Source: Corallium rubrum (Eukaryota; Cnidaria; Anthozoa; Scleralcyonacea; Coralliidae). From it: a DNA stretch of 64,000 bases. The DNA lies in assembly GCA_964035015.1 (NCBI GenBank), contig OZ036010.1, forward strand, positions 6,509,467 through 6,573,466, given 5' to 3'. Shown here in pieces: positions 950 to 60,986 of the stretch. The notes under the pieces are model-generated. The model had not been told where the DNA came from. It searched no databases and worked only from the letters and a program-made list of their open reading frames with translations. Both the position numbers and the translations under genes were made by a program. Position 1 is the stretch's first letter. Every line of letters begins with the position of its first letter.

Positions 950-1500
950 GTGAATAGGACTCCATATCTCTTTATTTGTCGGCGTCCTTCTTTAATTAGC
1001 CAAGGTCCAAAATAATCGACCGCGCTGTATGTGAAGGGTGGAGCAGGGTTCAAACGATCTTCTGGCAGATCTGCCATTTTCTGTTCCTGCAATGAACCAC
1101 GAAGTTTTCTGCATTTCACGCACTTTGAAATTTGACTGGCCACGGCTGATCGTCCACCGATGATCCAGAATCCGGACGATCTGATGTTGTTATGCGTCAT
1201 TCCACGTCCCTGGTGTGCAACTTTCTGATGATGGTGACAGATAACCAATTCAGTCACGCGACCTTTTCTTGGAAGGATACATGGGTGCTTAATGCTCTCA
1301 GGAATACTTGGACGTCTGATTCGGCCACCCACACGCAGAATACCATCTTTACCAAGGAATGGATCTAGTTGATAAATTGAACTCGATTTTTTCACAGTTT
1401 TTCTGACTTGGTTGCGAACATCTCTGGTGGGAGGAGTTATATTCTGTGAACGCAGTCGCTGTTTCTCCAGATGACCCCGAAGTAAGAAAGACTTCCACAC
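895..1500 (-). pseudogene. BEL/Pao integrase, zinc-binding region and start of core
   Basis: Residues around VICHHHQKVAHQGRG and CVKCRKLRG give the HHCC zinc-binding site. YSAVDYFGPW carries the first catalytic Asp of the DDE core, and RAIHLETA follows. The frame then runs into a junction at about 895-930, where part of the core has been deleted and the frame changes. The upstream side is cut by the inverted duplication at 1449-1974, so the link to RNase H is broken. Residues at the start (MWKSFLLRGHLEKQRLR) also occur, in another frame, in the duplicated copy. Confidence 0.82.
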
Positions 1501-1974
1501 TTGTCACTGAGGTCAAAGAACTAGCAGGCATTGAAGATCGTTTGTGTGGTTTTTCCAGTTGGTATCAAGCCAAGAAAGCTATTGCAATTTGTCTTCGTCT
1601 TAGAAAGAGACTTACAAATCAGTTGCGTCAGAAGAGTTCGTCTGCCTATGACCGACAAACAATATTTCATCGACGTTTACTGGCTTGTAGGACAACCTTT
1701 CTTGCTTGGTAGCTTAGACGCTTTCATTTACTAACTGATTCAAATATTTACTAATGGGATTTGTTTGTCGGTCATAGGCAGACGAACTCTTCTGACGCAA
1801 CTGATTTGTAAGTCTCTTTCTAAGACGAAGACAAATTGCAATAGCTTTCTTGGCTTGATACCAACTGGAAAAACCACACAAACGATCTTCAATGCCTGCT
1901 AGTTCTTTGACCTCAGTGACAAGTGTGGAAGTCTTTCTTACTTCGGGGTCATCTGGAGAAACAGCGACTGCGTT
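1449..1974. repeat. 214-bp inverted duplication inside the BEL element
   Basis: Bases 1449-1662 are an inverted, near-identical copy of 1761-1974, with a 98-bp spacer (1663-1760). The right copy is in the native orientation and encodes the stretch around VSPDDPEVRKTSTLV. The left copy encodes the same residues on the opposite strand, so this is a duplication plus inversion rather than a simple inversion. Near-identity suggests a recent event, perhaps template switching or fold-back repair. Confidence 0.85.
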
Positions 1975-2916
1975 GTCAATTACACCACGCTGTGTGTCGA
2001 AATTGGTCCAAAGGAAATCGGGTCCATGCCACCACTCTTTTTTCTCAATTAAGTCTTGGGCGTAAAAACCACGGGAAGCATAATCAGCTGGATTTTCTTT
2101 CGATTCTACGTATCTCCATTGAGTAGGTGAAGTGAGGTCACGAATCTGTTGAATTCTGTTTGAGACGAAGACATGGAAGCGACGCGCATTATTGGAAATG
2201 TACCCAAGTACGACTTTACTGTCGGACCAGAAGAACTCATCGATTTGCTCGTACTCTAACTCCCTTTTCAATAACGCCCCGACTTTCGCCGTCACCAACG
2301 CAGCAGTAAGCTCTAGTCGAGGAGTGGTTACAAGCTTCAACGGTGCCACTCGAGATTTCGCCAACACCAACGAACAATGAATCCGACCCAGGTGATCGAC
2401 GAGCCTCAAATAGGAACACTGTCCGTAACCATTTTCACTTGCGTCCGAGAAGTTATGCAGCTCCACTACTTTGAATTCTCCAAAGTCGACTGGTACATAA
2501 CAACGAGGGATACTTAGTTTTGCTAGGAGCACTACATCGTTTCTCCATCTTTCCCATCTCGGCAACAGATAATCTGGAATCTTGTCATCCCAATTCGCTC
2601 CATCTCTACATAACTCTTGAAGGATTCTCTTTCCGATGAGTACGAACGGAGCAAGGACTCCCAAGGGATCAAACACAGAACTCACTGTTGATAAGATGCC
2701 TCTTCTTGTAAGTGGTCGGTCAGCCAATTCAATCCGAAATTTAAGAGTATCAGATTCCACGCACCATTGGACTCCCAGGGCTCTTTCAATCGGGAGGGCA
2801 TCACGAGTTGGATCCAGGTCCTGAATACCTTTCGCGCGTTCTTCAGGGGGAATTGCTTCGATGACTTCCTTACTGTTCGAGATTATCTTGTGGAGACGAA
2901 AGCCTCTTTCTTGCAT
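1714..2916 (-). pseudogene. BEL/Pao reverse transcriptase tail and RNase H
   Basis: The N-terminal part (LGVQWCVESDTLKF, GILSTVSSVFDPLG) is the Pao RT thumb region. The RNase H part shows NFSDASENGYGQ, TTPRLELTAAL, FWSDSKVVLGYI and KENPADYASRG, carrying the acidic residues of the family. The frame differs from the RT frame to its right (overlap 2883-2916), so a frameshift separates them. The last roughly 90 residues lie in the inverted-duplication arm and end on a sequence not native to the element. Confidence 0.88.
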
Positions 2917-5036
2917 AGCATTTTGGTCTTCTGGATTAGATCGATAGCATTGGTAGGTGTGGAAACCGACTTTAGTCCGTCGTCAACATAGAAATTATCT
3001 CTCACAAAATTTGCTGCTTGACTACCACATTCTCTTTCGTAATCATCTGCTGTCGCCTTCAAACCAACGTTAGCGCAACCAGGTGATGAAGTTGCTCCAA
3101 ATAAATGCGCTGTCATTCGGTACACAATTGGTTCGTTGTGCAAATCACCATCTTTCCACCAGAGGAAAGGAAGGAAATTTCGATCGTTGACATTCACCAT
3201 CACTTGGTGGAACATAGCCTCAAGATCACACATGAAGGCAATATTATCTTGGCGGAAACGGCAAAGAACACCCAGCAGACTGTTTGTGAGGTCAGGTCCC
3301 TGTAATAGGTTTTGATTTAGGGATTGTCCTTTGTACACAGCACTACAGTCAAAGACTACTCTTATCTTGTCAGGTTTTCTTGGATGGTAGACACTATGGT
3401 GCGGTAGATACCATATCCGACCGTCGTCCAATTTCATCTCTTCCTGAGGAACAAGTTCGGCGTAGTTACTAGCAATGAGTCCAACAAGATAGTTCGGGAG
3501 TTTGTTTAGCATCTTTCGATTTTCTTCCGGATCATCCAAGATGTTCAAGAAGTTTATTTTGTCCATCGCTGTACAACAGTGTTGAAGAAAATCTGAATAT
3601 CTTCTGAGCCCTGGACCATCATTTGGCGCGATCTTTGGCCAATTCTCAAGTTTCTTTCGATACGCATTCGAGACGAGGAAGGAATTACCAGACCTGTTCG
3701 CTAGGATTTTCTTGGCTTTCGCGTAGGCTGTTTCTGTGTCCAAGGGTAAGAGACCGCTTACTGCTTCTCTTGCTTCCCCAGATGTGTACCTTCCGAGATA
3801 ATACAGTCTCTCCGATGGTTGTTTTGTTTTTCTTTCAATTAAGGTCTCGAAGGCCTTGATCCAAATTGGATATTGAAGCAAATCACCACTGGAGACGTCC
3901 GGTTGAGGACGTGGAAGTGAGTCGTAAACTTGTCGTTGCGCGAGCATGTCCGCTAACCTTGTTAATGAATCCCCATTGGCATTGGCATTGGTATTGTAAC
4001 CAGCAGAGACGTGAAGCGACGTATCTCTCCCGATTGTAGAAATGGGGAGTGATTCTTTTGACGTTTCTCCGTGCGATACAGCTGATGGAGGAGTTGGTAG
4101 TATAAAGCTCGGATGTGCTGTTGGGATGGGAAGAGATAAGGGATTTGAAACGTTGCCAGGTGTCACTCGATCTTTTGAATCTATATCTGTAGCTGGAGTT
4201 TTGCTAACCATGGATCCACAGATATTTATGTCGACTGGAAGTGTGCTTAAGCCCTTATTATTGATGGTATGCTGGGATTCCACATACTTCTTTACTCGTT
4301 CTCGCGAGCTGCCGTCATCTGGCAACTTCGATATGTTCTCGACGTTCAAATCAATGCTGAAATTTGACTCAACTTTAGCGACTGCCTCGATTTCGGCCTC
4401 AGTAGCAGCTAGCTCCTTCGCGATTTGAAATTGTTTCAGTTCGTCTTCTTGCTTTTTTAAGTCAGCCATCTTTTTCATTTCAACGTCATGAAATTTTAGC
4501 TCAGTTTCGAGTCTAGCTTTCCTAGCTAGCATTTTCGACCTCCGACGCAGCGAAGAATTCGATGTCTTAGTCGATGTCGATTTACCAGATGTTCTACTTC
4601 GAAGTGAGCGTTTAGAATTTGCAGAGCTTCGATCGTCCATTAGCTTTGAAATTCTCGTATTCAAATCAGTTAAGATTTTTTGATGTATACGACACCATTG
4701 TTCGTATGTACTCGATTGTTCCCCGCTAAATGAGGCACCAAATTTTACTTGCATGTTCGCCAAGTCATCCATACGCCCTTCTAGCATCGATCTTTCATGT
4801 TGTAATGCAACCACGTCGGCTGAATTTGCCAGAACGGCTTCGGCTATATTCGCTTGTTTTCGCCATGCCCTTGATGCAGTTGAATAGTCTCGTTGTAACA
4901 GTTGACGTTGGTATTCTTCTCCCTTGAGGGTAGGTATTCTTTCTCGTTGACTTGCACGATACCGGTCTCGAAAGTCGTGTTTTCCTCAGTAACGCCGTCT
5001 TCATCGACTGTGCCCTTTTTGGATCCCTCGGCCATG
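2883..5036 (-). pseudogene. BEL/Pao Gag-like region joined to reverse transcriptase by an internal deletion
   Basis: An ATG at 5036 begins MAEGSKKG. The frame shifts around 4930-4950, and from 4814 a 643-residue frame continues. It has a coiled, charged Gag N-terminus (Lys/Glu-rich helix near residues 90-145), a Pro/Ser/Thr-rich linker, and a Gag core with QYPIWIKAFETLIERK. It then jumps directly into RT (VWYLPHH-type residues, IRVVFDCSA, MCDLEAMFHQVMVN, and FYVDDG with the catalytic Asp pair). Zinc knuckle, protease and the RT N-terminus are missing between Gag and RT, and the junction is in frame. Known BEL elements have these parts, so this is a deletion. Confidence 0.85.
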
Positions 5037-5886: not shown

Positions 5887-6775
5887 TTTATCCCGAGTGC
5901 ACGTGCAGGAGACAAAAGAGAAAATCATTGGGGATCATTAAGAGGATTAAGCGCTTAGGCAAGTCTAGGCGAGAAAGTCATTAGCAACACGCGTGCATGT
6001 AATATAGAATTTAAGATATTTTATTGAGAAATATATCTTTACACAAAAAACTCTTGATTATTTAGTGATCTATCGATAACACGAGCATATGGGCATACAG
6101 TACATCTTATAATCCGAAGGCATGAGGGTCTTCGTCTTGACTATTATTGACTGTTGTTTCATGTGAATCTTCGTATAATCTTAGTCTTAGGACTATAGTC
6201 TTAGTCTTAGGACTATATAGTCTTAGTCTTATGACTATAGTCTTAGGACTATATAGTCCTAAGACTATAGTCCTAAGACTAAGACTATAGTCCTAAGCCC
6301 TAAGACTAAGACTATAGTCCTAAGCCCTAAGAATAAGACTATAGTCCTAAGCCCTAAGACTAAGACTATAGTCCTAAGACTAAGACTATATAGTCCTAAG
6401 ACTAAGACTATAGTCCTAAGACTATAGTCATAAGACTAAGACTATATAGTCCTAAGACTAAGACTATAGTCCTAAGACTAAGATTATACGAAGATTCACA
6501 TGAAACAACAGTCAATAATAGTCAAGACGAAGACCCTCATGCCTTCGGATTATAAGATGTACTGTATGCCCATATGCTCGTGTTATCGATAGATCACTAA
6601 ATAATCAAGAGTTTTTTGTGTAAAGATATATTTCTCAATAAAATATCTTAAATTCTATATTACATGTACGCGTGTTCCTAATGACTTTCTCGCCTAGACT
6701 TGCCTAAGCGCTTAATCCTCTTAATGACCCCTAATGAGTTTCTCTTTTGTCTCCTGCACGTGCACTCGGGATAAA
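5887..6775. mobile_element. Foldback element, about 300-bp arms around a tandem-repeat core
   Basis: The outer ends TTTATCCCGAGTGCACGTGC and its complement (6756-6775) begin two arms of about 300 bp (5887-6185 and 6480-6775) that match with few differences. The centre (about 6180-6485) consists of repeats of AGTCCTAAGACT and its complement, switching strand near 6250. No coding frame is present. Long inverted arms around internal repeats is the Foldback-type layout. No clear target duplication was found. Confidence 0.85.
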
Positions 6776-7495
6776 ACTTACTTTACTTTACTTTACTTTA
6801 CTTTACTTTACTTTACTTTACTTTACTTTACTTTACTTTACTTTACTTTACTTTACTTTACTTTACTTTACTTTACTTTACTTTACTTTACTTTACTTCG
6901 CCTCTACTCTACTCTACTTCACTCTATTCTACTCCACTCCACCCTACTTTATTCTATTCTACTCCACTCCACTCTACTTTCCTCCACTCCACTCTACTTC
7001 ACACCACTCCACTCCACTCCACTCTACTCTACTCTACTCTACTCTACTCTACTCTACTCTACTCTACTCTACTCTACTCTACTCTACTCTACTCTACTCT
7101 ACTCTACTCTACTCTACTCTACTCTACTCTACTCTACTCTACTCTACTCTACTCTACTCTACTCTACTCTACTCTACTCTACTCTACTCTACTCTACTCT
7201 ACTCTACTCTACTCTACTCTACTTTACTTCACTCCATCCACTTCACTCCACTCCACTCTACTTCACTTCACTCCACTCCACTCCACTCTACTTCACTCCA
7301 TTCCACTCTACTTCACTCCACTCCACTTCATTCCACTCCACTTCATTCCACTCCACTTCACTCCACTCCACTCCTCTCTACTTTACTCCATTCCACTACT
7401 TCTACTCTATTTTACTCCATCCATTTTGCTCCGTTCTACACCACTCTACTTCCCTCCACGCCACTCTACTCCACTTCACTCTGTTCCACTTTCTT
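6775..7495. repeat. Pentanucleotide satellite (ACTTT)n then (CTCTA)n
   Basis: Pure (ACTTT)n runs over 6775-6897, then a degenerate part, then nearly pure (CTCTA)n at 7019-7222, then CTCCA/CTTCA variants. It gives long stop-free frames in several phases, which are artefacts. The array ends about 80 bp before the acceptor of the ZU5 exon and supplies pyrimidine-rich DNA upstream of it. Confidence 0.95.
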
Positions 7496-7573
7496 GCATG
7501 CACCTCAGTTTAATACTGTTCTAAAAAGAATTTTACTTTTATTTTTTTTATACAAACGCTTCAACACGACCAG

Positions 7574-8436
7574 GAATGACAAAGGAATTCATTACAGAAC
7601 TTGATGGGGGAACACTAAAAACCAATGGAGTCACGCTTCGATTTGGAGCCGGCTGTCTTTCAAAAGACACTCAAATTACGATGATCGAGAATTACCACAA
7701 CTTTGCGTTTGGGTCTTTAGTTGACTTGGAACTACTGAAGGTCGCCCCACGTGTCCTGGAGTTCCTTCCTGACGGACTAGAATTCACAAAGTCGGCAGAT
7801 CTGACAGTTCAATTTGGGGAACATCTCGATTCGTTGGAACTTTTCGTTTTACATGGCTCTTACGACATCGAAATGGAAAGAACTATTTGGAGATTAGTGA
7901 CAGACGACATTGAAGTAAATAGCAAGGAGGGATATGTCAACATGAAAATCAACGGTTTTTGTTTCTACAGTTATATTTTGTCAACCCGAGGGAAGATAGC
8001 TCGTATTTTAAGTCACCTCAACCATTCGTTCAGCTGTCATGCAGTGGCCCTTTATCGTCGAATGCCAGCATCGCCGAAGATTGACGTGGCTGTGGTTCTT
8101 CTTAGCGAGTTTGTCGAAAGCCACGAAGACGAACGAAATAGTTCGCAGCTTTTAAGGATGGTTAACGAGGATAGTTTTTGTAGAAGTGAGAAGGGGGCGT
8201 TGAAACGTGTTGATACTCATCGTGGTCTCGAAATATGCATTGAATTTCCTGGAAAAGACGATCTAATTTCGTATTCGTTCAAAGTTGATGTGCCTCAGCT
8301 TGACTCAGTTGGTATGGTGCTTGACGAAAACAATTTTCGAGAAATTGCGCAAGAATTCCCCGCTCGAGGAAAAGTTCTTATTTACGAAATTCATCGGAAC
8401 AATAAACGTCTTCTGTGGACCTTGAATATCACCGAG
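7574..8436 (+). CDS. ZU5/UPA-like domain exon
   Basis: A large internal exon. The acceptor is CACGACCAG ending at 7573 and the donor is GAG|GTTAGA at 8436/8437. Reading from phase 1 it encodes 287 full codons. Residues 8-75 match the ZU5 pattern: GGTLKTNGVTLRFGAGCLS with the early Gly-rich turns, then LPDGLEFTKSADLTVQF. The second half (about 135-285) resembles the UPA module that follows ZU5 in UNC5, PIDD and ankyrin-like proteins; this half is less certain. ZU5-UPA usually precedes a Death domain and regulates it by folding over it. Death-like exons lie downstream on the same strand, but the 3' phase (0) does not join them directly. Upstream exons are not seen. Confidence 0.75.
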
Positions 8437-11085: not shown

Positions 11086-11311
11086 CGCCGAGAGGGGGGG
11101 CTAGGGGGAGAGGGCAAGTTGCCCCGGGTCCCCAACTTGAGAGGGCCCCCTAAAATCTTTGAGATTTGCGTATTTGACGTAAGAAAACATGAGGCCAGAA
11201 AGCGTAAAGATCAGTAACACTAATTTCATCTCTATCCAACCCAGGGAACTAATTGAGAACACGTAGACACGAGTCTATGACGTGTGACGTCATCAGCCTC
11301 CGCAAATCGAC

Positions 11312-12302
11312 CTAGCATAGGATATAGCATAGGATATAGCATAGGATATAGCATAGGATATAGCATAGGATATAGCATAGGATATAGCATAGCATATAGC
11401 ATAGCATATAGCATAGCATATAGCATAGCATAGCATATAGCATAGCATAGCATATAGCCATAGCATAGCATAGCATATAGCATAGCATATAGCATAGCAT
11501 ATAGCATAGCATATAGCATAGCATATAGCATAGCATATAGCATAGCATATAGCATAGCATATAGCATAGCATATAGCATAGCATATAGCATAGCATATAG
11601 CATAGCATATAGCATAACATAGCATATAGCGTAGCAAATAGCATAGCATATAGCATAGCATATAGCATATAGCATAGCATATAGCATAGCATATAGCATA
11701 GCATATAGCATAACATATAGCATAGCATATAGCATAGCATATAGCCATAGCATATAGCATATAGCATAGCATATAGCATAGCATATAGCATAGCAAATAG
11801 CATAGCATATAGCGTAGCAAATAACATAGCATATAGCATAGCATATAGCATATAGCATAGCATATAGCATAGCATATAGCATAGCATATAGCATAGCATA
11901 TAGCATAACATATAGCATAGCATAGCATATAGCATAGCATATAGCCATAGCATATAGCATATAGCATAGCATATAGCATAGCATATAGCATAGCAAATAG
12001 CATAGCATATAGCATAGCATATAGCATAGCATATAGCATAGCATATAGCATAGCATATAGCATAGCATATAGCATAGCATATAGCAAAGCATAACATAGG
12101 ATAGCATATAGCATAGCGTAGCATACCATACCATACCATACCGTACCGTACCATACCATACTATACCACAAAACAAAACAAAACAAAACAAAACAAAACA
12201 CCACACCATACCATACCATGCTATACCATACTATACCACACCAGATTAGATCAGACCATATCGTACCATACCATACCACGCCAATCATACTATACCATAC
12301 AA
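11312..12302. repeat. Satellite (ATAGC-type)n passing into (CCATA)n and (AAAAC)n
   Basis: ATAGCATAGC-type repeats fill 11312-12120, showing a higher-order pattern (blocks with ATAGCCATAGC, AACATA or AAATA variants recur near 11460, 11745 and 11943). The array then changes to (CCATA)n with an (AAAAC)n island at about 12168-12200. It produces three overlapping long minus-strand frames that are not genes. Confidence 0.95.
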
Positions 12303-24123: not shown

Positions 24124-25498
24124 TTAGTAATTATTTGTATATTTCTTTGATGCCTGTCCCCACACACATAATCCGTCACTTAAATATGACTGGGTGAGAG
24201 AACGGTAAATAGTAATCAGTATATTTTGTGGAAGAAAATGTCTTAATTTAGCGATGATGCCAACTGTTCGACTTATTTTAGTGGCAATATAATCAATATG
24301 ATATTTCCACGTAAGATGACAATCAATCAGTATTCCGAAGTATTTTACATAATTTTTGTTTTCAAGAGTAACATAGCTATTACTCGAGTTGTCATATATT
24401 TTAATATTAAGTTGAACATCAAGCTTTTTCTGATAACGACGAAAGATAACAAAATTTGATTTTTTTATATTAAGCAAGAGTTTGTTTACAGTTAATTTCT
24501 CTAATTCGGTATTTACTATTGATTCAAGTAAACGAATATTTTTGTTGGCATAAAGTAGATTATAGTATCATCAGCAAATAGGTAAAATTTAAATTTGCTA
24601 GATGCTTTATATATATCATTTATATAAATTAGGAAAAGTAAAGGTCCCAAGACTGAACCTTGAGGGACTCCGCATACAATTTTCTCTTTGTCAGAAATAG
24701 AATCGCCAAGTTCTCCATTTAAATATGAGGAAAACCATTCATGTATAATCCCCCTAATTCCATAGAATTGTAATTTATCTAAAAGTATGCTATGATTTAC
24801 TGTATCGAACGCTTTTTTCAAGTCAAACACAGCACAAGAGAACATACTTTCATCCATATTACTGTATTTTGTTTGTATCTGATTTATGATGTCCAGTATA
24901 GCATGCTGAGTTGAGTGTGCAGATCTAAAACCATATTGAGCATTATATAACAGGTTATTCTTCTCAATAAAATTTGCTAATCGTTTGTACATTATCTTCT
25001 CAAAAATTCTATTAAAGATAGAGAGCAATGATATTGGTCTATAATTATGTGGATCCGTTTCATCATCAGCTTTATAAATTGGTGTGATTTTGGACATTTT
25101 AAGCTTTGAAGGATATTTCCCCAATTTTCACTTAAAATTTCCTTTGCACACTTCAGCACGCTAACTGGACATGAATAAAGTCCATATGACTTATTGTTAG
25201 GTATTAGTTCAATTTCATGTTTAATTTCTTCACGTGATATTGGATTAAAGAAAAATGACTTTTCTTGTATAATATCTTGCATATAATCAGTAAATTTACT
25301 GTTTGTTGTAGAAAGATTGCTTGTTATTTTACAACCAACAGAAGCAAAATGCTTATTGATCAGATTGGCTAGTTGTAGGGACTCTATAATAAGTTCATTG
25401 GTTTCAGGATCTTTAAGTGAAAAAATAGGTCTTAGATTTTTTTTATTATTGGTGATTAAATTATTTATTCCTTTCCATGTTTTCCTTATGTTGTTCAT
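24124..25498 (-). pseudogene. LINE reverse transcriptase, three broken frames
   Basis: In order: pre-RT (SREEIKHEIELIPNNKSYGL), RT fingers/palm (ISKITPIYKADDETDPHNYR-like start, NYRPISLLS, FDLKKAFDTVNHSILL, GVPQGSVLGPLLF, FADDTI with catalytic Asp pair) and thumb region (YFGILIDCHLTWKYHID). Frames break at about 25000-25120 and 24480-24520. Catalytic residues survive but the frame does not, so it is inactive. Confidence 0.87.
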
Positions 25499-25545
25499 AT
25501 TGCTTTCAAAAAAAGAACGGAAATACGCTCTCTTGCTTGTGCGAA

Positions 25546-26556
25546 TCAGACTTGATAATTTGTTTCGGTACAGTTTATATTTGTTATGGTTTCTGGAAAA
25601 AAAAGAGTTTGTTTTTTAGTTTTTATTGATGTTCTTATTCCACTTGTTATCCAAGGTTTAAGAAATTGTTTTCTTTTACGTGAGGATATTGGTTTCAGTA
25701 GAGCAAATTTATTTGTTAAATTATTCAATTTTTTATAAAAAGAAGAGAACGTCTTATCTATATCGATTATATTGTCATTTTCAGATACTAAACCAACATT
25801 TGCTAATTCAGCATTAAATGCATTAGCCTGAAATTTTGAGAAATCTCTTATTTTCTTCCCTTTATACTTATTTTTTTCTTTTATAGAGAAATTCAAACAA
25901 AACTGTGAAAAATGATCACTAATATTAGAGACTATATTGCCACTTTTTAATGCCTCGGGGTTATTGGTAAAAATGTTGTCGATAATAGTGGCCGAATTAT
26001 TATACACCCTAGTTGGTTTATCAATTATAGGAGTAAAAAAGTAACTTTGTAAAGATAACATAACATCATGACTATAATTACATGTCTCCAATTTGAGAAG
26101 ATCTATGTTGAAGTCGCCTATAATATACATCGGTTTTCCAGTTAAACTATATTTTTCTAGGGTCTCATCCGTGTATGTCATAAATGTGTTGACGATATAT
26201 AATTCCGCATACAATATTTCTCTTATTAACAAATTCTATTTCAATCCATAAAGCTTGAAAAGATTGATTTGACTTCTTTTCCAAAATGGAGTATTTAAGA
26301 ATTTCATTTATATAAACTCTGACTCCTCCTGAAGACAGAGGGGTTGGAACATGTTCAAAATTATATCCTACAATATCAACATTGATATCAAGGATTGTAG
26401 AATTGGTAATTTTTGTTTCCGTAATACCAATTATATCAAAACTGAAATCTAATTCATTTAGAAGATGAGTTTGCAGATTTTCAAAATTACGTCTTAAGCT
26501 TCTTACATTATTATGTAAAATAGAAAAACATGTTTCTACGTTAGAAGTTGAGAAGC
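25546..26556 (-). pseudogene. LINE apurinic endonuclease remains
   Basis: The N-terminal part (NNVRSLRRNFENLQTHL, IIGITETK) lies at about 26240-26550 in a frame different from the C-terminal part. The latter has YIIGDFNIDLL (the catalytic GDFN box), a TRV..ATIIDNIFTN segment and NISDHF (the SDH box). A frameshift near 26220 separates them. The endonuclease order upstream of RT fits the Jockey/CR1/L2 group. Confidence 0.83.
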
Positions 26557-26827
26557 ATTTCTTAAATTACGCAAAACTATGGGGAGAATAATAATTAGAC
26601 CGAACGGAATTGTCAAGTAGGCATGTATAATTTTTTCAAGATTGTTTTTAGATGGAAGATTACTGATATTAATAAGATTACCATAATAAATGTGTAAATA
26701 AAGACCTGTTCTCTTTCTGCTTAGATTTATCACGTACAGGCCTCATTTATGGTGTTCATGTAATGATAAACATGAATAATAATAATAATAATTAGACAAA
26801 TCTAAAAGAGGCATAAGCAAACGGTGT

Positions 26828-26830
<3 letters not shown>

Positions 26831-26896
<66 letters not shown>
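26831..26896. repeat. (TA)n microsatellite at the PLE left end
   Basis: An uninterrupted TA tract immediately before the inverted PLE segment. A matching tract lies at the other end (29979-30048). Its presence at both ends may reflect insertion into, or extension of, a TA tract. Confidence 0.92.
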
Positions 26897-26897
<1 letters not shown>

Positions 26898-27479
26898 CGC
26901 TTACCTCAAAAGTCTGCTACAGGCTGTTTCATCTAAAAAGAATCTTCAGGCAGATGACAATTTTCGAAAACAGGGGGTGCTTATATCCTTCTTGTCGGAA
27001 CGTGGGAGTGTGGGGGCGAAACAATACATGCATTCATGGCTTTGTTGCGCTGTTTGCGCGGAATTTGTTTCGATGACGACATTGACTGATAATTTCTGCT
27101 CTTTTGTTGAGTAAACAATTCTTGTTTTTATCTTTCAAAATATAAAATTTTTCTTCTAAACATAAATTACATCGTTTTGAACCTCGTGTACGAAATAGAA
27201 TGTTTTAAAATTTGCCAATTAATACTAAAATCCTTATTGTTTTCTTTCAATGCCCAAATATATTTCGAAAGTTTGGTGTCGTTTGCATGCTTTTTATGCT
27301 GAAAAGATTTAGTGTGGTTGGCCAATCGCTCTTTGAATGTGGTTGAAGTCATGCCAATGTAATTCTTGATCGTGTTTGTGTTGTTTACTGTGACTGTTGC
27401 TTTGTATACTATGTCCCTAGTCATGCATTGTTTTCTAAGTGGACAATTCGTGTTTTTCTTACAATTGCAACTGCTAGAT
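26897..27479 (-). repeat. Inverted 5'-truncated PLE copy
   Basis: It is the reverse complement of roughly 29327-29910, including the last 85 residues of the GIY-YIG domain (27167-27424 minus), the 3' UTR and the hammerhead-like motif. Residue differences from the direct copy are minimal (TKLSK versus TELSK), implying the same insertion event or very recent duplication. Confidence 0.9.
26913..26954 (-). ncRNA. Hammerhead-ribozyme-like motif 2, inverted copy
   Basis: The reverse complement of the motif at 29851-29892, with the same CTGAAGA and GAAA boxes and GCAGA/TCTGC stem I. It lies in the inverted PLE end. Confidence 0.62.
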
Positions 27480-27590
27480 GAAACAGCCTGTAGCAGACTT
27501 TTGAGGTAAGCGAAAATCTATATTTGCTCTAACTATATGTTATCGAGCACTCTTTGCGTTTCGTAGACCAAAACCCACACGTATATTCGC
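27476..27590 (+). repeat. PLE direct terminal repeat (left pLTR, truncated)
   Basis: AGATGAAACAGCCTGTAGCA and the following ~110 bp equal 29871-29986 with two or three differences. This copy begins inside stem II of the hammerhead-like motif, so it keeps only the 3' half of the ribozyme core. The junction with the inverted copy lies exactly there. Confidence 0.88.
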
Positions 27591-27605
27591 ACCCGTATAT
27601 CGGTT

Positions 27606-29638
27606 GTGCACTCTTGTTTACGTTATTCATTTCTATTTAACTTCAAAATGCGGCAATTTCGATTTGACTATTCACTAAAGAATATCCCAATACCATCACA
27701 GGACGCTTATTTGAAGAATTTTATTGAAAAAGTGGAAAGTGTAATAAAACGTATGAGATGGAAAGCCAATTTCTTTCTTAAAAACAAACAGAGAGAAAAC
27801 CAAAACAACCCTTTCGGCCTTGCGTCCAACAAAACACCTCCTTCTATCCCGGAAATAAAACCTTTCGAAGACGACCTTATAAAACTCATCGAAAATATAC
27901 AATTTCGGCCATATACGAACCAGTTTCAGAAATGTTTGGCTACCGATTTAAAGAAAATTAACTCATCTCCCAACATTTTCATTTTTGCAGACAAAACTAG
28001 GAACATTTATGAAACCCCGCTCGACACATACAACAAGCTCCTACATGACAACATCACAAAAACATATAAGCACGGATCCGAGGACGCTATAGATGAAATT
28101 GATTCGGAACTAAAAGAAATTTCGAACAGTTTAGGAATCGGCGACAAAATTGAAAAAATGAAAAAACGCGAAGCGTTTATATCTTTAAAAGACCACAAAG
28201 AAAATTTCGAAAACAATCCAAAATGCCGATTAATTAACCCCGCTAAAAGCGAATCCGGAAAACTAAGTAAGGTGATTTTGGACAAAATTAATTCTAATTT
28301 GAGACAAAAACTGAATTTAAACCAATGGAGAAATACAAAACAAGTAATTGAGTGGTTTGGCAATATAAAAGATAAGGACAGACATAGTTTTATTTCCTTT
28401 GACATTGTCGATTTCTATCCGTCTATTTCTGAAAAACTATTGGACCAAGCATTATCTTGGGCTTCGAATTTGTCTACTATAACTGAAAACAATATTTCAA
28501 TAATAAAACACGCTAGAAAATCTCTCCTTTTCAATACCGGAATTTCATGGATAAAAAAAGATAGCAATAGTTTGTTTGACGTTACCATGCGGGTTGTTTC
28601 GACGGCGCGGAAGTTTGTGAGTTAGTAGGCCTTTTCATTTTAAATCACCTAAGTAAGAAATTTGGCAAAGAAAGTATTGGCCTATATAGAGATGACGGTT
28701 TAGCTATTATAAAAAGTAAATCAGCACGTTTAGCAGACAAAACAAGGAAAGAACTCCACAAAATTTTCGAGCAGTTTGACCTAAAAATTACCGCCGAATC
28801 AAATTTACGCATAGTAAACTTTTTAGATGTAACTTTCGACCTTAACCATGGAAATTATAGGCCCTATAGGAAGCCCAATGACGATCCGCTTTACATAAAT
28901 AAGCACTCTAACCACCCACCAAGCATCACAAGACAGTTACCTGCATCAATCAACAAGCGCATTGCACTTCTCTCATCAGATGAACAAGTTTTTCAGGAAT
29001 CTGCACCCATATATCAGAACGCACTTAGGCACAGCAACTTTGACTATGATCTTAGCTACACTCAACACACAGCACAGCAACCACACAGGAATAGGCAACG
29101 CAACATCACTTGGTTCAACCCACCTTTTAGCAAGAGTGTAAGCACAAACATAGGACGTAAATTCCTAAATCTAATTGACAAGCACTTCCCACCACACCAC
29201 AAGCTCCATAAGATTTTTAACAGAAACACAGTCAAAGTAAGTTACAGCTGCATGAACAATGTTAAGTCAATAATCACTAAACACAATGCACACATATCTA
29301 GGAATAACATGCCACAGGATAAGGACACTAGCAGTTGCAATTGTAAGAAAAACACGAATTGTCCACTTAGAAAACAATGCATGACTAGGGACATAGTATA
29401 CAAAGCAACAGTCACAGTAAACAACACAAACACGATCAAGAATTACATTGGCATGACTTCAACCACATTCAAAGAGCGATTGGCCAACCACACTAAATCT
29501 TTTCAGCATAAAAAGCATGCAAACGACACCGAACTTTCGAAATATATTTGGGCATTGAAAGAAAACAATAAGGATTTTAGTATTAATTGGCAAATTTTAA
29601 AACATTCTATTTCGTACACGAGGTTCAAAACGATGTAA
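27606..29638 (+). pseudogene. PLE reverse transcriptase with GIY-YIG endonuclease, frameshifted
   Basis: Penelope-type polyprotein. RT part: FRPYTNQFQK region, EAFISLKDHKENFENNPKCR, PAKSESGKLSK and FISFDIVDFYPSIS (first catalytic Asp). A frameshift at about 28590-28625 (two extra bases by reading) stops the first frame at 28625. The other frame continues with GLYRDDGLAII (RT catalytic DD), INKHSNHPPSITRQLP, a Cys-rich linker (CNCKKNTNCPLRKQC) and the GIY-YIG endonuclease (VYKATVTV, NYIGMTSTTFKERLANH with catalytic Arg). Except for the shift every domain is present, so loss was recent. Acts in target-primed reverse transcription at chromosomal nicks. Confidence 0.9.
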
Positions 29639-29850
29639 TTTATGTTTAGAAGAAAAATTTTATATTTTGAAAGATAAAAACAAGAATTGTTTACTCAACA
29701 AAAGAGCAGAAATTATCAGTCAATGTCGTCATCGAAACAAATTCCGCGCAAACAGCGCAACAAAGCCATGAATGCATGTATTGTTTCGCCCCCACACTCC
29801 CACGTTCCGACAAGAAGGATATAAGCACCCCCTGTTTTCGAAAATTGTCA

Positions 29851-29892
29851 TCTGCCTGAAGATTCTTTTTAGATGAAACAGCCTGTAGCAGA
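29851..29892 (+). ncRNA. Hammerhead-ribozyme-like motif 3 (PLE 3' pLTR)
   Basis: CTGAAGA (29856-29862) is followed by a weak stem II, TCT/AGA with a T4 loop, then GAAA (29875-29878). Stem III is ACA/TGT with a GCC loop, the presumed cleavage site is GTA (85-87), and stem I is TCTGC (29851-29855) with GCAGA (29888-29892). Hammerheads in PLE terminal repeats are published for several eukaryotes. This one is read by eye and not folded computationally. Confidence 0.65.
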
Positions 29893-29975
29893 CTTTTGAG
29901 GTAAGCGAAAATATATATTTGCTCTAACTATATGTTATCGAGCACTCTTAGCGTTTCGTAGACCAAAACCCACAC

Positions 29976-30027
<52 letters not shown>

Positions 30028-30048
30028 ATATACGTATATATATATATA
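29872..30048. repeat. PLE right pLTR and flanking (TA)n
   Basis: The direct repeat partner of 27476-27590 ends at about 29986, followed by a TA tract to 30048 interrupted by CTATATACG. Confidence 0.85.
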
Positions 30049-30215
30049 TCATAGACAAACTTATCTTGGTGACAAAGTTTTGATAATAGGATTCTGAATG
30101 TTCAATCATCAGCATCCAAGCGGTGCATCCTCATTAGCATGCATGACCAAACATCCAAACAGTACTCTTTTACACACCAAAGAAATGCATTATTATAAGA
30201 TAATCATGGTATTAC

Positions 30216-32334: not shown

Positions 32335-34262
32335 AATTCAATTCAATTCAATTCAATTCAAAGGTCTTTATTTATAAAATCATAGGGTAAAAAGAACATA
32401 TCCTATGTTACAATTGTAAAAAAGTTCAAGATATTTTAAAGCATTATATTATATTTAAAATGTACTCGGTTAATAAAAGTGTTCATAAAACGGTTAGTGT
32501 TTATCTTTGGGCGTTGACTTGACTTATTTCTTAAGTTGTATTTAGTTAGTTTAACTTGTGGCATTAGATGATGAAGTGGATGATTACTCAGCGAGGATAC
32601 CTTCTTGATTATCTTTTTATCTTGGTTTTCCATAAGGTTGCGTACCATCACACGTTTCGAGGTACATTTGCGTTTATGGCAACGATCTAAGAAGCACTGA
32701 ATTGTTGTCAATTCAGAATCAGCTGCACCATATACTGATAGGCCATAAGTGATGTTAGGTAACACAATGCTGTTAAAAAGATGGTCAATTTCTGTTTGGC
32801 TACAACCTTCCTTACGCAATACTCTTAGTATATAAAGACCTCTGTTTGCCTTAACTAACTTATTTTTTACATGAGAGGTAAACTTACAATCATGCTGAAA
32901 GGTAACACCTAGTATAGGAAGAGCTTCGCATTGTGGAATGTTCGAGATAGTAGGATAAGTTTCCTTTTTTCCTTTCTTACAAAATGTTAGTTCTTTACAT
33001 TTACTAGGATTACAAGACATCGAATTTGAATTTGTCCAGTCCATAAACTGAGAGACAAGGTCCTGTGAGCAATCCTTTTCATTCCAGACTGGCGATATTA
33101 TGGTTGAGTCATCGGCATATTTATATAGGGCATCTTCACTGCTTTGGTTGATTTCTAAATCATTAAGAAAAATGTTAAACAGAAAAGGGCCACTAACGCT
33201 CCCCTGTGTAGTTCCCTTATTTACTGCCTTCCAGTCTCCTGCAAAATCATTATGGAAAATTCTCTGTTGTCTTCCTTCAAGAAAATTGATGTACCAGTTA
33301 ATAATGTAAGGGTTTAGTGGCAGTTCTTTGAGTTTAGTAGCGAGCAGGTTATGTTTGACGGAGTCAAAAGCTTTGCTGAAATCCATGGCAAATAGTCGCA
33401 CAGCTTTACACTTGGGGTTATCGAGATAACTACATACTTTGTGTTGAATTGTTAATAAAGCATGTGTACAGTTGCCACCATCCCTATACGCAAATTGAGT
33501 TGAGCTCAGATTCTCCTCCACCTTATCTTTAGCACAGTTACGATATACCACTCTCTCAAAAGCTCTGGCTATTACTGGAGTTATATTTATCCCCCGGTAC
33601 TCGTTGTTTTCACTAGGTAAGTCTACTTTAGGGATAGGGTTAATATTAGCTCGCTTCCAGGTTAGTGGCCAGGTGTGTGTAGATATTGATAGATTCCAGA
33701 CTCTAGTTATAATGGGGGTCAAAATTCCTGCGTGATCTTTCCATATCCAGTAAGGAAGGTTGTCGGGTCCACTTGCAGTTCTTTTTAACTTTCTCAACGA
33801 GTTCCAAACCTTTTCCTCAGTGATCTCAGGAATCTCCATCTCACTACCAATGTAAATAGCTTCTGGCTTTTTATACGCATGATCGGAGCACAGCTCTCCA
33901 AAATAATTATTCAGCTCCTCCAGTGATTTGTTATCTAATGTCACATTATACGAATATGATTTTCGCTGCGAGATTTTATCAACCCCCTTCCACCATCCAC
34001 GACTTCCCAATGCGGCTGCAAGAGCGTTTCTTCTGTTTTCACTAATCACCTCTGATATTCTTTTATTAATTGTTGTTAGTCGGTCTTTATTTAAATTGGA
34101 AATTTTGGCCTTAGTCTTGAGCATATACTTAACCAGGGGAGTCATCCATACTGGGTCACGAGACGACATGGAAACAGTTCTTAATGGCATGCATCTGTTC
34201 ATATGACTTTTAATTTTCTGTTCTAGTAAATTTACCGCTTGATTTATTCCTGTGGTATTGAA
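32335..34262 (-). mobile_element. 5'-truncated LINE with intact RT frame
   Basis: The element runs leftward from about 34262, where homology starts inside the ORF2 linker, to a (TTGAA)n tail (plus-strand CAATT repeats at 32335-32361). The endonuclease is absent, the usual result of incomplete reverse transcription. Confidence 0.85.
32436..34202 (-). CDS. LINE ORF2 fragment: reverse transcriptase (CR1/Rex1-like)
   Basis: 588 residues without a stop. A linker with [16 protein letters not shown] leads to RT blocks: [55 protein letters not shown] (catalytic Asp), [26 protein letters not shown] (catalytic Asp pair) and [17 protein letters not shown]. The C-terminal part includes [12 protein letters not shown] and a Cys/His-poor tail ending near (TTGAA)n. 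The frame remains open through upstream codons to about 34262, so the ATG at 34202 is only the first Met. It lacks the endonuclease, so it is non-autonomous, but the frame is surprisingly clean. Confidence 0.88.
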
Positions 34263-41737: not shown

Positions 41738-42744
41738 AACTGACCTGTATATAACTGGACCGCTTGCTCTTGCCAAAAAAGCTGTGGTCATTTGAACATG
41801 GCGTCAAATGGCGAATTTGAGTCCTTCTGCTCATGGGAGCAGCCACTGACCAGTGCTTGACACTGATCTGTAGGCGTTTTATGCTGTTCTTTCGTAAAAA
41901 AATTTTTCTCTGTTTGAAAATTGATCTAAACTGGCCATGTCTTTTTCAGTTTAATATATTTTTACGCTCCGTTGTTGGCAACTAGTGACACCTGGAGAAC
42001 ACCAGCTTATAGTAAGTGCAGTTAAAACTTTCAGTGTAGTCTGTCGAAGTACAAAATAAATGTTTTACATCGTACGTTTTTCAGTATATGATTGATGTTT
42101 CGGGTTTAAGTTAATAAGCTTAACAGTTGTTTACTTCGTATTTGCTTGCCTTCACTGGCCCTTCTGGTTCAGATTTCAAACTCACTGGAACATTTCAACA
42201 TAAGGACGGAATTTTTCGCAAGATTTGGTATATGTTTTACAACGAGAAATACTGATGTTTTAAAACAGTAAGCTTATTAAATCCTTTTCGAAAAGTACTA
42301 AAATGTGCCGAAAGCCCACGAAAAGTATTAAAATACAAGCCGTTGAATTGCCGGCCTGGTATTCACTTGTCAGTTCAGCTGTGCCTTCTTCATTTCGGCA
42401 ACAAAAACAGTTAATAAATATAACTTATGCGGCAACAAAACCGAGTAACCGACAGGAATTAACAATATAACTGCTTTGTGTATTTATTTCTGTACCTTTT
42501 TTAACCTTTCAAAAAAGAATTGTTGTGTTTATCTTTGAAAATATCAGCGAGTCGAGGATTTTTTTCTTCATTTCACGGGATATTTTATAAAGCCTGCGTC
42601 TGTAATCCAGTCAAAATCGTGGTCAGTGTTGTCTACCATGAGCAGAAGGACTCAAATTCGCCATTTGACGCCACGTTCAAATGGCCACACTTTCATAACT
42701 CAAAGATAATAGGAGCAAGCGGTCCAGTTATATACAGGTCAGTG
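41738..42744. mobile_element. Mutator-like TIR element with 9-bp target duplication
   Basis: CTGGCGACC occurs exactly at 41729-41737 and 42745-42753. Just inside are inverted ends ACTGACCTGTATATAACTGG (left) and the same (right, inverted), continuing for about 120 bp of TIR with CATTTGAACATGGCGTCAAA. A 9-bp duplication with long TIRs points to MULE. There is no transposase frame. The interior is AT-rich with a LINE-free, unrecognised core. Confidence 0.82.
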
Positions 42745-52293: not shown

Positions 52294-52385
52294 AGATATA
52301 TTGCTTCGTTTAGAACTTTTACTCAAGGTTTGCTTAAATCGGGTCGTCGAACGAATGTGGGGTTGGTTGGTGGTTCAGGTTAGGC

Positions 52386-52965
52386 GTGAGCTGAGGCGGC
52401 ATGAAGTGAGGTGAGGTGAGACGAGGCGAGATAAAATGAAGTGAGGTGAGGTGAGGTGAGGCGCGTGAGATGAGATGAGGTGAGGTGAGGTGAGGTGAGG
52501 CGAGGCGAGACGAGGCGAGGCGAGGCGAGGCGCGTGAGATGAGATGAGATGAGATGAGATGGGATGGGATGGGATGGGATGGGATGGGATGGGATTGGAT
52601 GGGATGAGATGAGAAGGGATGGGATGGAATGGGATGGGATGGGATGAGATGGGATGAGATGGGATGAGATGAGATGAGATGAGATAGGATGAGATGAGAT
52701 GAGAAGGGATGGGATGAGATGGGATGGAATGGGATGGGATGGGATGAGATGGGATGAGATGGGATGAGATGAGATGAGATAGGATGAGATGAGATGAGAT
52801 GGGATGGGATGAGATGGGATGAGATGAGATGGGATGGGATGGGATGAGGTGAAATGAGATGAGACGATGGGAAACGAGATGAGATGAGGTGAAGTGAGGT
52901 GAGAGGCGCGTGAGGTGAGGTGAGGTGAGGTGCGGCAGCATGAGGTGAAGTAAAGTGAGATGCTA
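52386..52965. repeat. Pentanucleotide satellite (GATGG/GGTGA)n
   Basis: AGGTGAGGTG, GAGATGGGAT and GATGAGATGA blocks in mosaic. It starts 12 bases from the donor of EGF6 and fills the intron toward EGF7. Confidence 0.94.
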
Positions 52966-52976
52966 GGTTAACTTAC

Positions 52977-53093
52977 TTTCGCACGTCCTTCCCCTGAACC
53001 CTCTTGAACATGCGCACTTGAATGCCATTGGTCCGAGGTTAATACACGAGCCATCATTCAAACATGGTTCCGAGTCACAAGGGTTAATAGCCG
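52977..53093 (-). CDS. EGF-like domain 6 exon
   Basis: Acceptor TTATTTTAG, donor GAAA|GTAAGT, 117 bp, phase 1-1. AINPCDSEPCLNDGSC, INLGPMAFKCAC, SRGFRGRTC. The C1-C2 loop DSEP fits the O-glucose consensus C-x-S-x-P-C, the only copy that does. LNDGSC fits the O-fucose consensus. Confidence 0.88.
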
Positions 53094-53185
53094 CTAAAAT
53101 AATAAAAAATAAATAAATACAGCGAAGTGTTAGTATACACGCTTTTAATAAGCACTGATTACTTCATTGAAATCTGCGTTCTTAC

Positions 53186-53296
53186 TTTCGCAGCTGACTC
53201 CAGTAAATCCTTGAGGACAGAGACATTCAAAAGCACCTTGAGCGTCTGAACAAGTACCACCATTTCGACAAGGATTGGTATGGCATCTACTTTCGA
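53186..53296 (-). CDS. EGF-like domain 5 exon
   Basis: Acceptor TTCTTTACAG, donor GAAA|GTAAGA, 111 bp, phase 1-1. ESRCHTNPCRNGGTC, SDAQGAFECLC, PQGFTGVSC. It has the O-fucose consensus, and CSDAQGAFECLC fits the Asp/Asn beta-hydroxylation pattern (C-x-D-x4-F-x-C-x-C), although the calcium-binding residues before C1 are absent. Confidence 0.9.
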
Positions 53297-53503
53297 CTGT
53301 AAAGAAAAAGACTGCGGTTAGTTCGAACATTTATTATTTGACAGTGACGTCATTATCCCTAATATGGGCAAAAGAACGCAGTTAATACACTACAGTATTG
53401 TATCGTAATAATCCGTATTATAATCACAATACAACACAGCACAGCACAGCACAATAGCTTGTATAGTACGTACAGTTCTATGTTAAAAACCGCCGTTACT
53501 TAC

Positions 53504-53620
53504 GCTCACAATGAATGCCGCTATAGCCTCCTTGACAAAGACAAGACATAAATCCTGGACCCTCTCCTCCCATACATGTCCCTCCATTAAGACAAGGACT
53601 GAGATGACAGTGATCGATTT
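53504..53620 (-). CDS. EGF-like domain 4 exon
   Basis: Acceptor TTACTTTCAG, donor GAGC|GTAAGT, 117 bp, phase 1-1. EIDHCHLSPCLNGGTC, MGGEGPGFMSCLC, QGGYSGIHC. EID before C1 is the nearest any copy comes to a calcium-binding start. The middle loop is Gly-rich and longer by two residues. O-fucose consensus present. Confidence 0.9.
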
Positions 53621-53738
53621 CTGAAAGTAAATCAAACAGCTTGTTTAATTAAAGAAAACAAACTTTAAACAAATATTAAATTTGGAAATTACCAAAATAT
53701 CTCTTGACTCTACTGAGTTAAGAAACACGCGTGCACAG

Positions 53739-54056
53739 TACATTACATTACATTACATTACATTACATTACATTACATTACATTACATTACATTACATTA
53801 CATTACATTACCCTACGCTACGCCACGCCAGGCCACACCACACTATACACTACATATTACACATTACATTACATTACATTACATTACATTACATTACATT
53901 ACATTACATTACATTATATTACGTCGCATTACGTCGCATTACATTACATTGCCTTACATTGCATTACATTGCATTACATTGCATTACATTACATTACATT
54001 ACGCTTTACATTACATATCACATTACATATTACATTACGTCGCATTACATTACATT
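53739..54056. repeat. Pentanucleotide satellite (CATTA)n starting at a splice donor
   Basis: (CATTA)n with CGTCG, CCTAC and ATATCA interruptions. Read on the minus strand it is (GTAAT)n, and the donor of EGF3 is the first GTAATG of the array, so every unit looks like a weak 5' splice site. Confidence 0.95.
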
Positions 54057-54058
54057 AC

Positions 54059-54169
54059 CTTCACATGTTGCACCTCTATACTCAGCCCCGCAGCTACACT
54101 CGAATCCGCCGTTAATCTCTGTACAAGAGCCGCCATTTTTACACGGATTAGGCTGGCATTTGTTATGCT
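54059..54169 (-). CDS. EGF-like domain 3 exon
   Basis: Acceptor TTTTTTCTTAG, donor GAAG|GTAATG at the edge of the satellite. 111 bp, phase 1-1. EHNKCQPNPCKNGGSC, TEINGGFECSC, GAEYRGATC. Canonical spacing and O-fucose consensus. Confidence 0.9.
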
Positions 54170-54352
54170 CTAAGAAAAAAATAGGCGGCATGAAAAATTA
54201 CATACATGTAGCAAAACCGCGTTGCTGCACAGTTTACTCGCTTAGACTGAGTGCCCGTGTCCAGTGCCATTTTACGTCATCAAATCCAATATGGCGACGC
54301 CCATGAGGCCTAATTGTTCAAACATGCGGTGATCCTTCTGAAATCTATCACC
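54170..54352. other. Short intron segment
   Basis: Contains CAATATGGCGACGCCCATG; no exon recognised. Confidence 0.35.
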
Positions 54353-55513
54353 TGTATTCTAACGGCTCACTCCCACTCACACTCACACTCACACTCACAC
54401 TCACACTCACACTCACACTCACACTCACACTCACACTCACACTCACACTCACACTCACACTCACACTCACACTCACACTCACACTCACACTCACACTCAC
54501 ACTCACACTCACACTCACACTCACACTCACACTCACACTCACACTCACACTCACACTCACACTCACACTCACACTCACACTCACACTCACACTCACACTC
54601 GCACTCAGTGAGTGGCCCCTCACACTCAATAAGTACAACTCAACACTCAATGAGTCTCCATTCACCCCCACTGAGTATGAGACTATACTCGCCATTCAAT
54701 TGAATGTTTAGAGAGTGAGTATAGTCTCATACTCAGTGAAGGTGAGTGGAGACTCATTGAGTGTTGAGTTGTACTTATTGAGTGTGAGGGGCCACTCATT
54801 GAGTGTGAGTGTGAGTGTGAGTATGAGTGTGAATGTGAATGTGAGTGTGAGTGTGAGTGTTGAGTGTTGAGTGTTGAGTGTTGAGTGTTGAGTGTTGAGT
54901 GTTGAGTGTTGAGTGTTGAGTGTTGAGTGTTGAGTGTTGAGTGTTGAGTGTTGAGTGTTGAGTGTTGAGTGTTGAGTGTTGAGTGTTGAGTGTTGAGTGT
55001 TGAGTGTTGAGTGTTGAGTGTTGAGTGTTGAGTGTTGAGTGTTGAGTGTTGAGTGTTGAGTGTTGAGTGTTGAGTGTTGAGTGTTGAGTGTTGAGTGTTG
55101 AGTGTTGAGTGTTGAGTGTTGAGTGTTGAGTGTTGAGTGTTGAGTGTTGAGTGTTGAGTGTTGAGTGTTGAGTGTTGAGTGTTGAGTGTTGAGTGTTGAG
55201 TGTTGAGTGTTGAGTGTTGAGTGTTGAGTGTTGAGTGTTGAGTGTTGAGTGTTGAGTGTTGAGTGTTGAGTGTGTGTGAGTGTGAGTGTGAGCGTGAGCG
55301 TGAGGGTGAGGGTGAGTGCGAGAGGGTGAGTGCCAGAGTGTGAGCGTGTGAGCGTGTGAGCGTGTGAGCGTGCGGGTGAGGGTGAGGGTGAGTGTGAGTG
55401 TGAGTGTGAGAGCGTGAGCGTGTGGGTGAGGGTGAGGGTGAGTGTGAGTGTGAGTGTGAGTGTGAGTGTGAGTGTGAGTGTGAGTGTGAGTGCGAGTGAG
55501 CTTTTAGAATACA
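54353..55513. repeat. Foldback with asymmetric satellite arms (TCACAC)n / (GAGTGTT)n
   Basis: TGTATTCTAACGGCTCACTC (54353) and its inverse (55494-55513, one or two changes) bound a palindrome centred near 54705. The inner arms (54600-54700 and 54715-54815) match exactly over about 90 bp. The left arm has (CACACT)n for 230 bp. The right arm has a 7-bp (GAGTGTT)n over 54858-55270, not found on the left, then (GTGTGA)n. All long frames here are artefacts. Confidence 0.9.
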
Positions 55514-55688
55514 TGCGTATATAACACTCGACCAAAAATGTTTTTTGACCCAGGCCGTCTTTGACCAAAAAATGTCCTCAGAACATCTATAGATCAATCG
55601 AGTGAAATGTTAAATATATTACTACCATTACATATATTTCCTTCATCCTCCTCACCACATTTCCCCAAGTTATTTAATTATTCCTTAC

Positions 55689-60537: not shown

Positions 60538-60986
60538 ACGTTCGTCCGTTCGTTCGTTCGTTCGTTCGTCCGTCCGTTCGTCCGTTCGTTCGTCCGTTCG
60601 TCCGTTCGTCCGTTCGTTCGTTCGTCCGTTCGTTCGTCCGTTCGTTCGTTCGTTTTCGTCCGTTCGTCCGTTCGTCCGTTCGTTCGTCCGTTCGTCCGTT
60701 CGTCCGTTCGTCCGTTCGTCCGTCCGTCCGTTCGTCCGTTCGTTCGTTCGTTCGTCCGTCCGTCCGTTCGTCCGTCCGTCCGTCCGTCCATCCGTCCGTC
60801 CGTCCGTCCGTCCATCCATCCATCCATCCATCCATCCATCCATCCATCCATCCATCCATCCATCCATCCATCCATCCATTTATCCATCCATCCATCCATC
60901 CATCCATCCATCCATCCATCCATCCATCCATCCATCCATCCATCCATCCATCCATCCATCCATCCATCCATCCATCCATCCATCCA
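60538..60986. repeat. Tetranucleotide satellite (CGTT/CGTC)n then (CCAT)n
   Basis: A mosaic of GTTCGTCC units to about 60812, then (CCAT)n. It yields frames of repeated Asp-Gly-Trp-Met and Arg-Thr-Asn-Glu, all artefacts. Confidence 0.95.

Follow-up and report, generated by a model that had tools for sequence, protein, structure and literature searches.

The 64,000-nucleotide stretch of Corallium rubrum DNA analyzed here (the window) carries a Penelope-like element (PLE). The element probably belongs to a young, high-copy retrotransposon family that inserts into (TA)n microsatellites and primes reverse transcription at two sites, designated A and B. How PLEs insert is an open question; in the purified system of PAc, a Poseidon element from Anolis carolinensis, starts of reverse transcriptase (RT) without target homology were reported (PMC11167929). 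The young inserts described here constitute a natural record of (TA)n targets, the same 9-mer at two RT starts, a rule that pairs A ends with B ends, and a predicted hammerhead cut that would separate these starts from the element body. This record makes the PLE priming rule and the role of the hammerhead directly testable. The features of the element are located in the window as follows.

26831..26894, no strand: (TA)n tract to the left of the insert (from sequence)
26887..27477, minus strand: inverted arm, a copy of 29328-29918 with 1 mismatch in 591; its outer end lies at site A in (TA)n
26913..26954, minus strand: inverted duplicate of the hammerhead-type motif, identical letters
27475..27586, plus strand: 5' direct repeat (pLTR copy) with only the 3' half of the motif; 2 mismatches in 112
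27519..27527, plus strand: site A 9-mer TATATTTGC in the 5' repeat (from sequence)
27582..27590, plus strand: site B 9-mer TATATTCGC, read through into the unit (from sequence)
27648..28592, plus strand: ORF part 1, putative N-terminal part of the RT (motif FDIVDFYPSI)
28595..29638, plus strand: ORF part 2, in a different frame from part 1, with putative motifs YRDDGLAI, a Cys-rich stretch and the GIY-YIG-like NYIGMTSTTFKERLANH
29851..29892, plus strand: hammerhead-type motif, predicted cut after 29887 (29887/29888)
29870..29981, plus strand: 3' direct repeat (pLTR copy), pairs with 27475-27586 and ends at site B
29914..29922, plus strand: site A 9-mer TATATTTGC, probable RT start used by inverted arms (from end mapping)
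29976..29981, plus strand: site B (CACACG/TATAT boundary), 3' end of the element in (TA)n (from end mapping)
29977-30025 and 30035-30049, no strand: (TA)n tracts to the right of the insert (from sequence)

Both outer ends of the insert lie in (TA)n, and the element has the Penelope-like traits given in PMC3846280, namely direct pLTRs with an inverted copy, tandem units and 5' truncation. A first-pass annotation of this DNA had reported a 42-nt hammerhead-like motif, complete at 29851-29892 (plus strand) and inverted at 26913-26954 (minus strand), and had placed a hammerhead in both terminal copies of the PLE. Both 42-nt copies were present and identical, and the motif does lie in a terminal repeat. 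The inverted copy is not independent, however, because it is contained in the 591-nt inverted arm with its one mismatch, and the second direct repeat carries only half of the motif. This third, partial copy, which the annotation lacked, arises where the 5' direct repeat (27475-27586) begins at the end of motif loop II, without the 5' strand of stem I, CTGAAGA and the 5' strand of stem II. The element therefore contains one complete sense motif, together with its inverted duplicate.

Canonical PLEs encode a telomerase-related, PLE-type RT and a GIY-YIG endonuclease (EN). In the element described here, we take FDIVDFYPSI, YRDDGLAI, the Cys-rich stretch and NYIGMTSTTFKERLANH to be motifs of the PLE RT and GIY-YIG domains. 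The open reading frame (ORF) contains a frame break, and this copy is therefore defective. The sequence CNCKKNTNCPLRKQC is situated between the RT and EN parts, and the Cys-rich stretch at this position suggests that the element may be Neptune-like. The ORF protein had no match in Pfam, NCBIfam or PDB, the ORF read through the frame break had none in Pfam, and the AlphaFold model of ORF part 2 (pLDDT 37) was too poor for a fold search. Since no profile or PDB match was obtained, the RT and EN assignments are putative and based on short sequence motifs. Neither protein searches nor DNA-pattern searches of IMG/VR and GTDB yielded relatives, and tblastn of ORF part 2 against phages and plasmids gave no match. 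Two contigs retrieved with an RT-motif pattern were rejected, as their ORFs were not PLE-like. Elsewhere in the window, ORFs that by eye resemble a BEL/Pao-type retroelement occur at 152-4814 (minus strand), and ORFs that by eye resemble non-LTR RT and endonuclease parts flank the PLE at 24124-26232 and 32436-34202 (both minus strand). Long simple-repeat tracts, open in several frames, lie at 6734-7604, 11232-12288, 52375-55597 and 60394-61084.

A search of the host genome (474 Mb, 312 contigs) returned at least 41 DNA matches and at least 117 protein matches to the element, and the protein matches were 97-99% alike. Some copies form head-to-tail arrays, such as four units spaced 2397 bases apart on contig C9. 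This period is divisible by three, and some tandem arrays may therefore read through their units in frame. Open frames of 2118, 2222 and 2176 aa were observed around PLE units at C9:1127861, C20:468580 and C20:448706, respectively.

The ends of the element were assessed in 60 copies (rows 2-61 of the 117 protein matches) chosen by the EN-side match alone, with 301 bases taken across the end of each copy. Twenty copies continued into the next tandem unit, 19 had their end at site A and the other 21 at site B; all 40 free ends lay in (TA)n. This protein-chosen sample replaced a right-end count from the first 30 loci, which was set aside as biased because the query ended in TA. Two loci (L115 and L116) were assigned as B ends on second look, and L106 was scored as an A end by eye and as tandem by a stricter script, owing to a chance TATATTCGC in its flank. 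The (TA)n of L106 (C12:16436186-16436486) is followed by TTCGCAC, as after TATAT at site B, which may be chance or the trace of an older copy.

The opposite side of the insert was followed in 21 loci with long flanks, the window and L048-L067; for the 20 fetched loci only the inverted side was counted, because their query ended in TA. In 14 of the 21, there was an inverted arm whose outer end coincides with site A or lies no more than about 15 bases from it, and all 14 arms start in (TA)n, which is short in L050 and L055. Inverted arms with other outer ends were found in L056 and L064. No inverted arm was present in L053, L058, L059 and L060, some of which join non-TA DNA on that side, and the remaining locus, L067, is a tandem that was followed short of its end. 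The inner ends of 15 A-arms were scattered. Several inner junctions show short overlaps or microhomology, and others carry extra bases.

Among the protein matches listed, 22 head-to-head pairs were recognized by eye and 21, with copies less than about 7 kb apart, were examined, a pair on C1 with copies 9 kb apart being left out. Two of these 21 (L142/L084 and L103/L146), in which the array continues, were excluded from the tally. Of the 19 inserts assigned, 18 have site A at one end and site B at the other, an excess with P(>=18 of 19) = 3.8e-5 at a 1:1 expectation; one member, L138, had been reassigned to A both by eye and by the stricter script. The sole A-A insert was L072/L128. In L128 (C37:10633425-10633725), a PLE end, two partial copies of the hammerhead region are separated by a short (TA)n block, which could reflect a small second event within the motif.

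The two sites share a sequence. The DNA at site A reads GCGAAAATC then TATATTTGC, and at site B CCCACACG then TATATTCGC; in the RNA these boundaries are ..GCGAAAAUC / UAUAUUUGC and ..CCCACACG / UAUAUUCGC, respectively. Within the element, the consensus 9-mer TATATTYGC has just three occurrences, at 27519, 27582 and 29914; a search of both strands found a single further one in the window, at 4845. In 80 stretches, site B was sharp, with 23 of 26 matches ending exactly at CACACG. Site A was loose, as its 33 matches, one of which is the internal block of L128, ended at GAAAATC (12), GAAA (9) or GA (4) in the main; pairing with UAUAU at site A is therefore inexact. Another TATAT run between the sites (29929) formed an end in none of the 80 stretches. 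Position 29913 is A in the window and C in most of the family members inspected, and the A lengthens the TA run of the window.

These observations are consistent with the following model. The endonuclease would open both strands of a (TA)n tract, and each TATA 3' end would pair with the UAUAU of one site and prime cDNA synthesis on an element RNA that extends past a unit boundary. The two cDNAs would then be joined head to head, with some inserts having one arm only. The two UAUAUUYGC copies, one used per strand, could in this way set both the target and two-strand priming by RNA-DNA complementarity, and a ribozyme cut would disarm the template; we propose this complementarity rule tentatively, at somewhat under even odds. 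An unlikely alternative is snap-back: the first cDNA would fold back on itself and serve as its own template, producing the inverted arm without a second priming event on the target. Self-priming was suggested earlier for Penelope elements of rotifers (PMC3846280), and snap-back would suit the overlaps and microhomology seen at several inner junctions, but not the extra bases at others. Under snap-back the start should also be fixed and the outer end should vary, whereas the outer end was observed at or near site A in (TA)n and the inner junction varied. The near-fixed outer end, the variable inner junction and the A-with-B rule therefore fit two-strand target priming better than snap-back.

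The origin of the (TA)n itself could also be questioned, since both element sites begin with UAUAU and tract lengths vary: the RT might generate the tracts by slipping on UAUAU, the real target being merely AT-rich. Tracts are found at both ends of inserts, however, and are often interrupted by other bases or by repeat blocks, for example (TG)n (L085), and (TA)n tracts also occur in the window away from the element. Slippage as the source of the tracts is accordingly improbable, and insertion into existing (TA)n microsatellites is the preferred reading. A (TA)n target combined with two target-complementary start sites may be new: no PLE with strict (TA)n targeting was found in the literature searched, outside which Repbase and subscription papers lie.

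The hammerhead-type motif lies just upstream of both sites. The hammerhead consensus comprises three stems, a CUGANGA...GAA core, the A15.1-U16.1 pair and an NUH cleavage triplet. Every core base of this consensus is present in the motif, and the core order given in the first-pass annotation (stem I TCTGC/GCAGA, CTGAAGA, stem II, GAAA, stem III ACA/TGT and GTA) was found in both copies. CTGAAGA occupies 29856-29862, GAA 29875-29877 and the GTA triplet 29885-29887, and the bases of the A15.1-U16.1 pair are present. Stem I has 5 bp; the base of stem II is a mismatched U.U (T29863/T29874), above which 3 bp (TCT/AGA) follow; stem III has 3 bp closed by a GCC triloop.

That annotation had also proposed a covariance-model check, and its outcome was negative, which is one half of the refutation named there. 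No hammerhead was detected by Rfam 15 at gathering thresholds in the whole 64-kb window, nor at E<=10 in 26700-30100 (3.4 kb) or in 65 bases containing the motif, with models that may miss minimal PLE variants. Because no Rfam hammerhead model matched, we use the name hammerhead-type motif and do not assign it as a proven hammerhead. The missing Rfam match is the sole point in favor of a chance resemblance, which is otherwise scarcely credible. A descriptor fitted to the compact layout matched none of 2000 Markov sequences of 64 kb, and the version with wide loops allowed matched 7 of 2000; a looser version gave 0.01-0.03 matches per 64 kb in 100 simulated sequences. The exact core and stem III pattern retrieved 15 loci from IMG/VR (including three pairs with the same sequence), and in none of these did stem I exceed 3 bp, against 5 bp in the motif. 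The placement of the motif within a PLE end repeat likewise speaks against chance. A 31-nt match elsewhere in the window (42514-42544) had no hammerhead in the sequence around it.

In the first set, 27 of the 30 loci, counting that of the window, carried an intact motif (exceptions L032, L039 and L046). Among the 60 protein-chosen copies it was readable in 56 and intact in 54, the other two having G12 changed (L103) or stem I broken (L071). The cleavage triplet was GTT instead of GTA in 13 of the 54 intact motifs, and the U.U at the base of stem II was present in all 108 readable motifs (110 stretches, some loci fetched twice). Loop length and H17 vary among copies and the core is intact in most, yet the motif is nearly identical overall, and no divergent family was found in which stem covariation could be assessed. 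Because the copies are 97-99% alike at the protein level, this conservation says little about selection.

The 42-nt monomer was folded with RNAfold, which does not credit the hammerhead core; it favored CUG/CAG pairing and folded no better than shuffled sequences. Stem III is limited to 3 bp in the monomer, and in a dimer the near-palindrome ACAGCCUGU can pair 4+4 bp around a C.C. The double-hammerhead dimer was predicted at -17.2 kcal/mol versus -5.8 for two monomers, and an alternative dimer fold in which the core is tied up reached -22.6 versus -17.2 kcal/mol. The annotation had derived a possible need for a dimer from the weak stem II, which was the wrong stem: in published dimeric hammerheads the extended helix is helix III (PMC6155905). 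Its statement that hammerheads in PLE terminal repeats were already published is borne out by PMC6155905, PMC7761336 and PMC11167929.

It is possible, though doubtful, that the motif is an inactive passenger kept only through the youth of the copies. The absent Rfam match, the invariant U.U, the weak stem III, the preference of folding programs for other pairings in monomer and dimer, and the near identity of the copies would all be expected of a passenger; against it, the core stays intact in most copies while loop length and H17 vary, and the motif lies where other PLEs carry theirs.

Whether an active ribozyme would serve insertion is a separate matter. The predicted cut lies 26 nt before the A 9-mer and 89 nt before the B 9-mer. 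Both RT starts are thus downstream of it, and cleavage would sever the RT start from the element body. The long cDNA arms read across the predicted cut, and their templates were therefore uncut at that place. If cut RNAs were templates, the signature would be (TA)n directly before GCAGACTTTTGAGGTAAGCG. The site was also compared in 146 copies for which upstream sequence was available (a redundant set); 5 had unusual upstream letters and none started at the cut, in a collection of loci mostly chosen for sequence upstream of the cut, where cut templates could be under-counted.

These results bear on the proposal that an active dimeric ribozyme cuts array transcripts into unit RNAs that serve as transposition templates. 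Several lines of evidence suit it: 54 of the 56 motifs that could be read retain the core and have A or U as the cleavage base; the C9 units, 2397 bases apart, would place several complete motifs in one RNA; and helix III is near-palindromic. For PLE hammerheads, work cited in PMC7761336 has already described action as dimers, and the axolotl HHR_Amex2 cleaves despite a U.U at the base of helix II (PMC7229834). We nevertheless regard this proposal as unlikely, since both RT starts lie downstream of the cut, none of the 15 A-arms ends at the cut, none of the 146 redundant site copies begins there, and Anolis hammerhead mutants inserted normally in vitro (PMC11167929). The need of the arms for uncut RNA, the absence of starts at the cut and the normal insertion of the PAc mutants suggest that the ribozyme is not the maker of the integrating template. 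If active, it more likely processes other RNAs, for example transcript units of tandem arrays, and might do so as a dimer through helix III.

That PLEs carry hammerheads, which probably act as dimers, was already known (PMC6155905, PMC7761336, PMC7229834). As described by Cervera and De la Pena (2014) and Lunse et al. (2017), via PMC7761336 and PMC6155905, these hammerheads share with the motif reported here the minimal type I layout in pLTRs and a weak or absent helix III, and are thought to act as dimers. The present motif differs in its 3-bp stem III with a triloop, the U.U at the base of stem II, and cDNA arms that run through the cut. The Penelope elements of Adineta vaga (PMC3846280) likewise have two direct pLTRs with an inverted copy on the 5' side, an optional tail on one side and junctions with microhomology. 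Some of them are flanked by target site duplications of 8-10 bp, whereas the flanks here are (TA)n, and the inverted arms here are of very different length, some extending deep into the ORF. Simple repeats are also the insertion targets of the Dong-type microsatellite-targeting non-LTR elements (as cited in PMC3636483), which belong to another retrotransposon class, and an AT-rich preference of PLEs is known (PMC11167929; PMC3124438).

The closest comparison is with PAc, for which the following was reported in PMC11167929. PAc cuts and extends both target strands in vitro, and its RT starts at two adjacent sites described as not homologous to the cut DNA. The PAc hammerhead required protein for cleavage, and cleavage mutants of it showed normal insertion in vitro. 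Both systems have a hammerhead upstream of two RT starts, an AC-rich start and an AT-rich target. The distance from cut to start in PAc is 85-92 nt (by subtraction from the published +26 and +111 to +118), compared with 89 nt to site B here. In contrast to PAc, the motif in the present element lies upstream of the ORF and not at its start, and both RT starts lie next to UAUAUUYGC, a 9-mer in which the UAUAU part is complementary to (TA)n.
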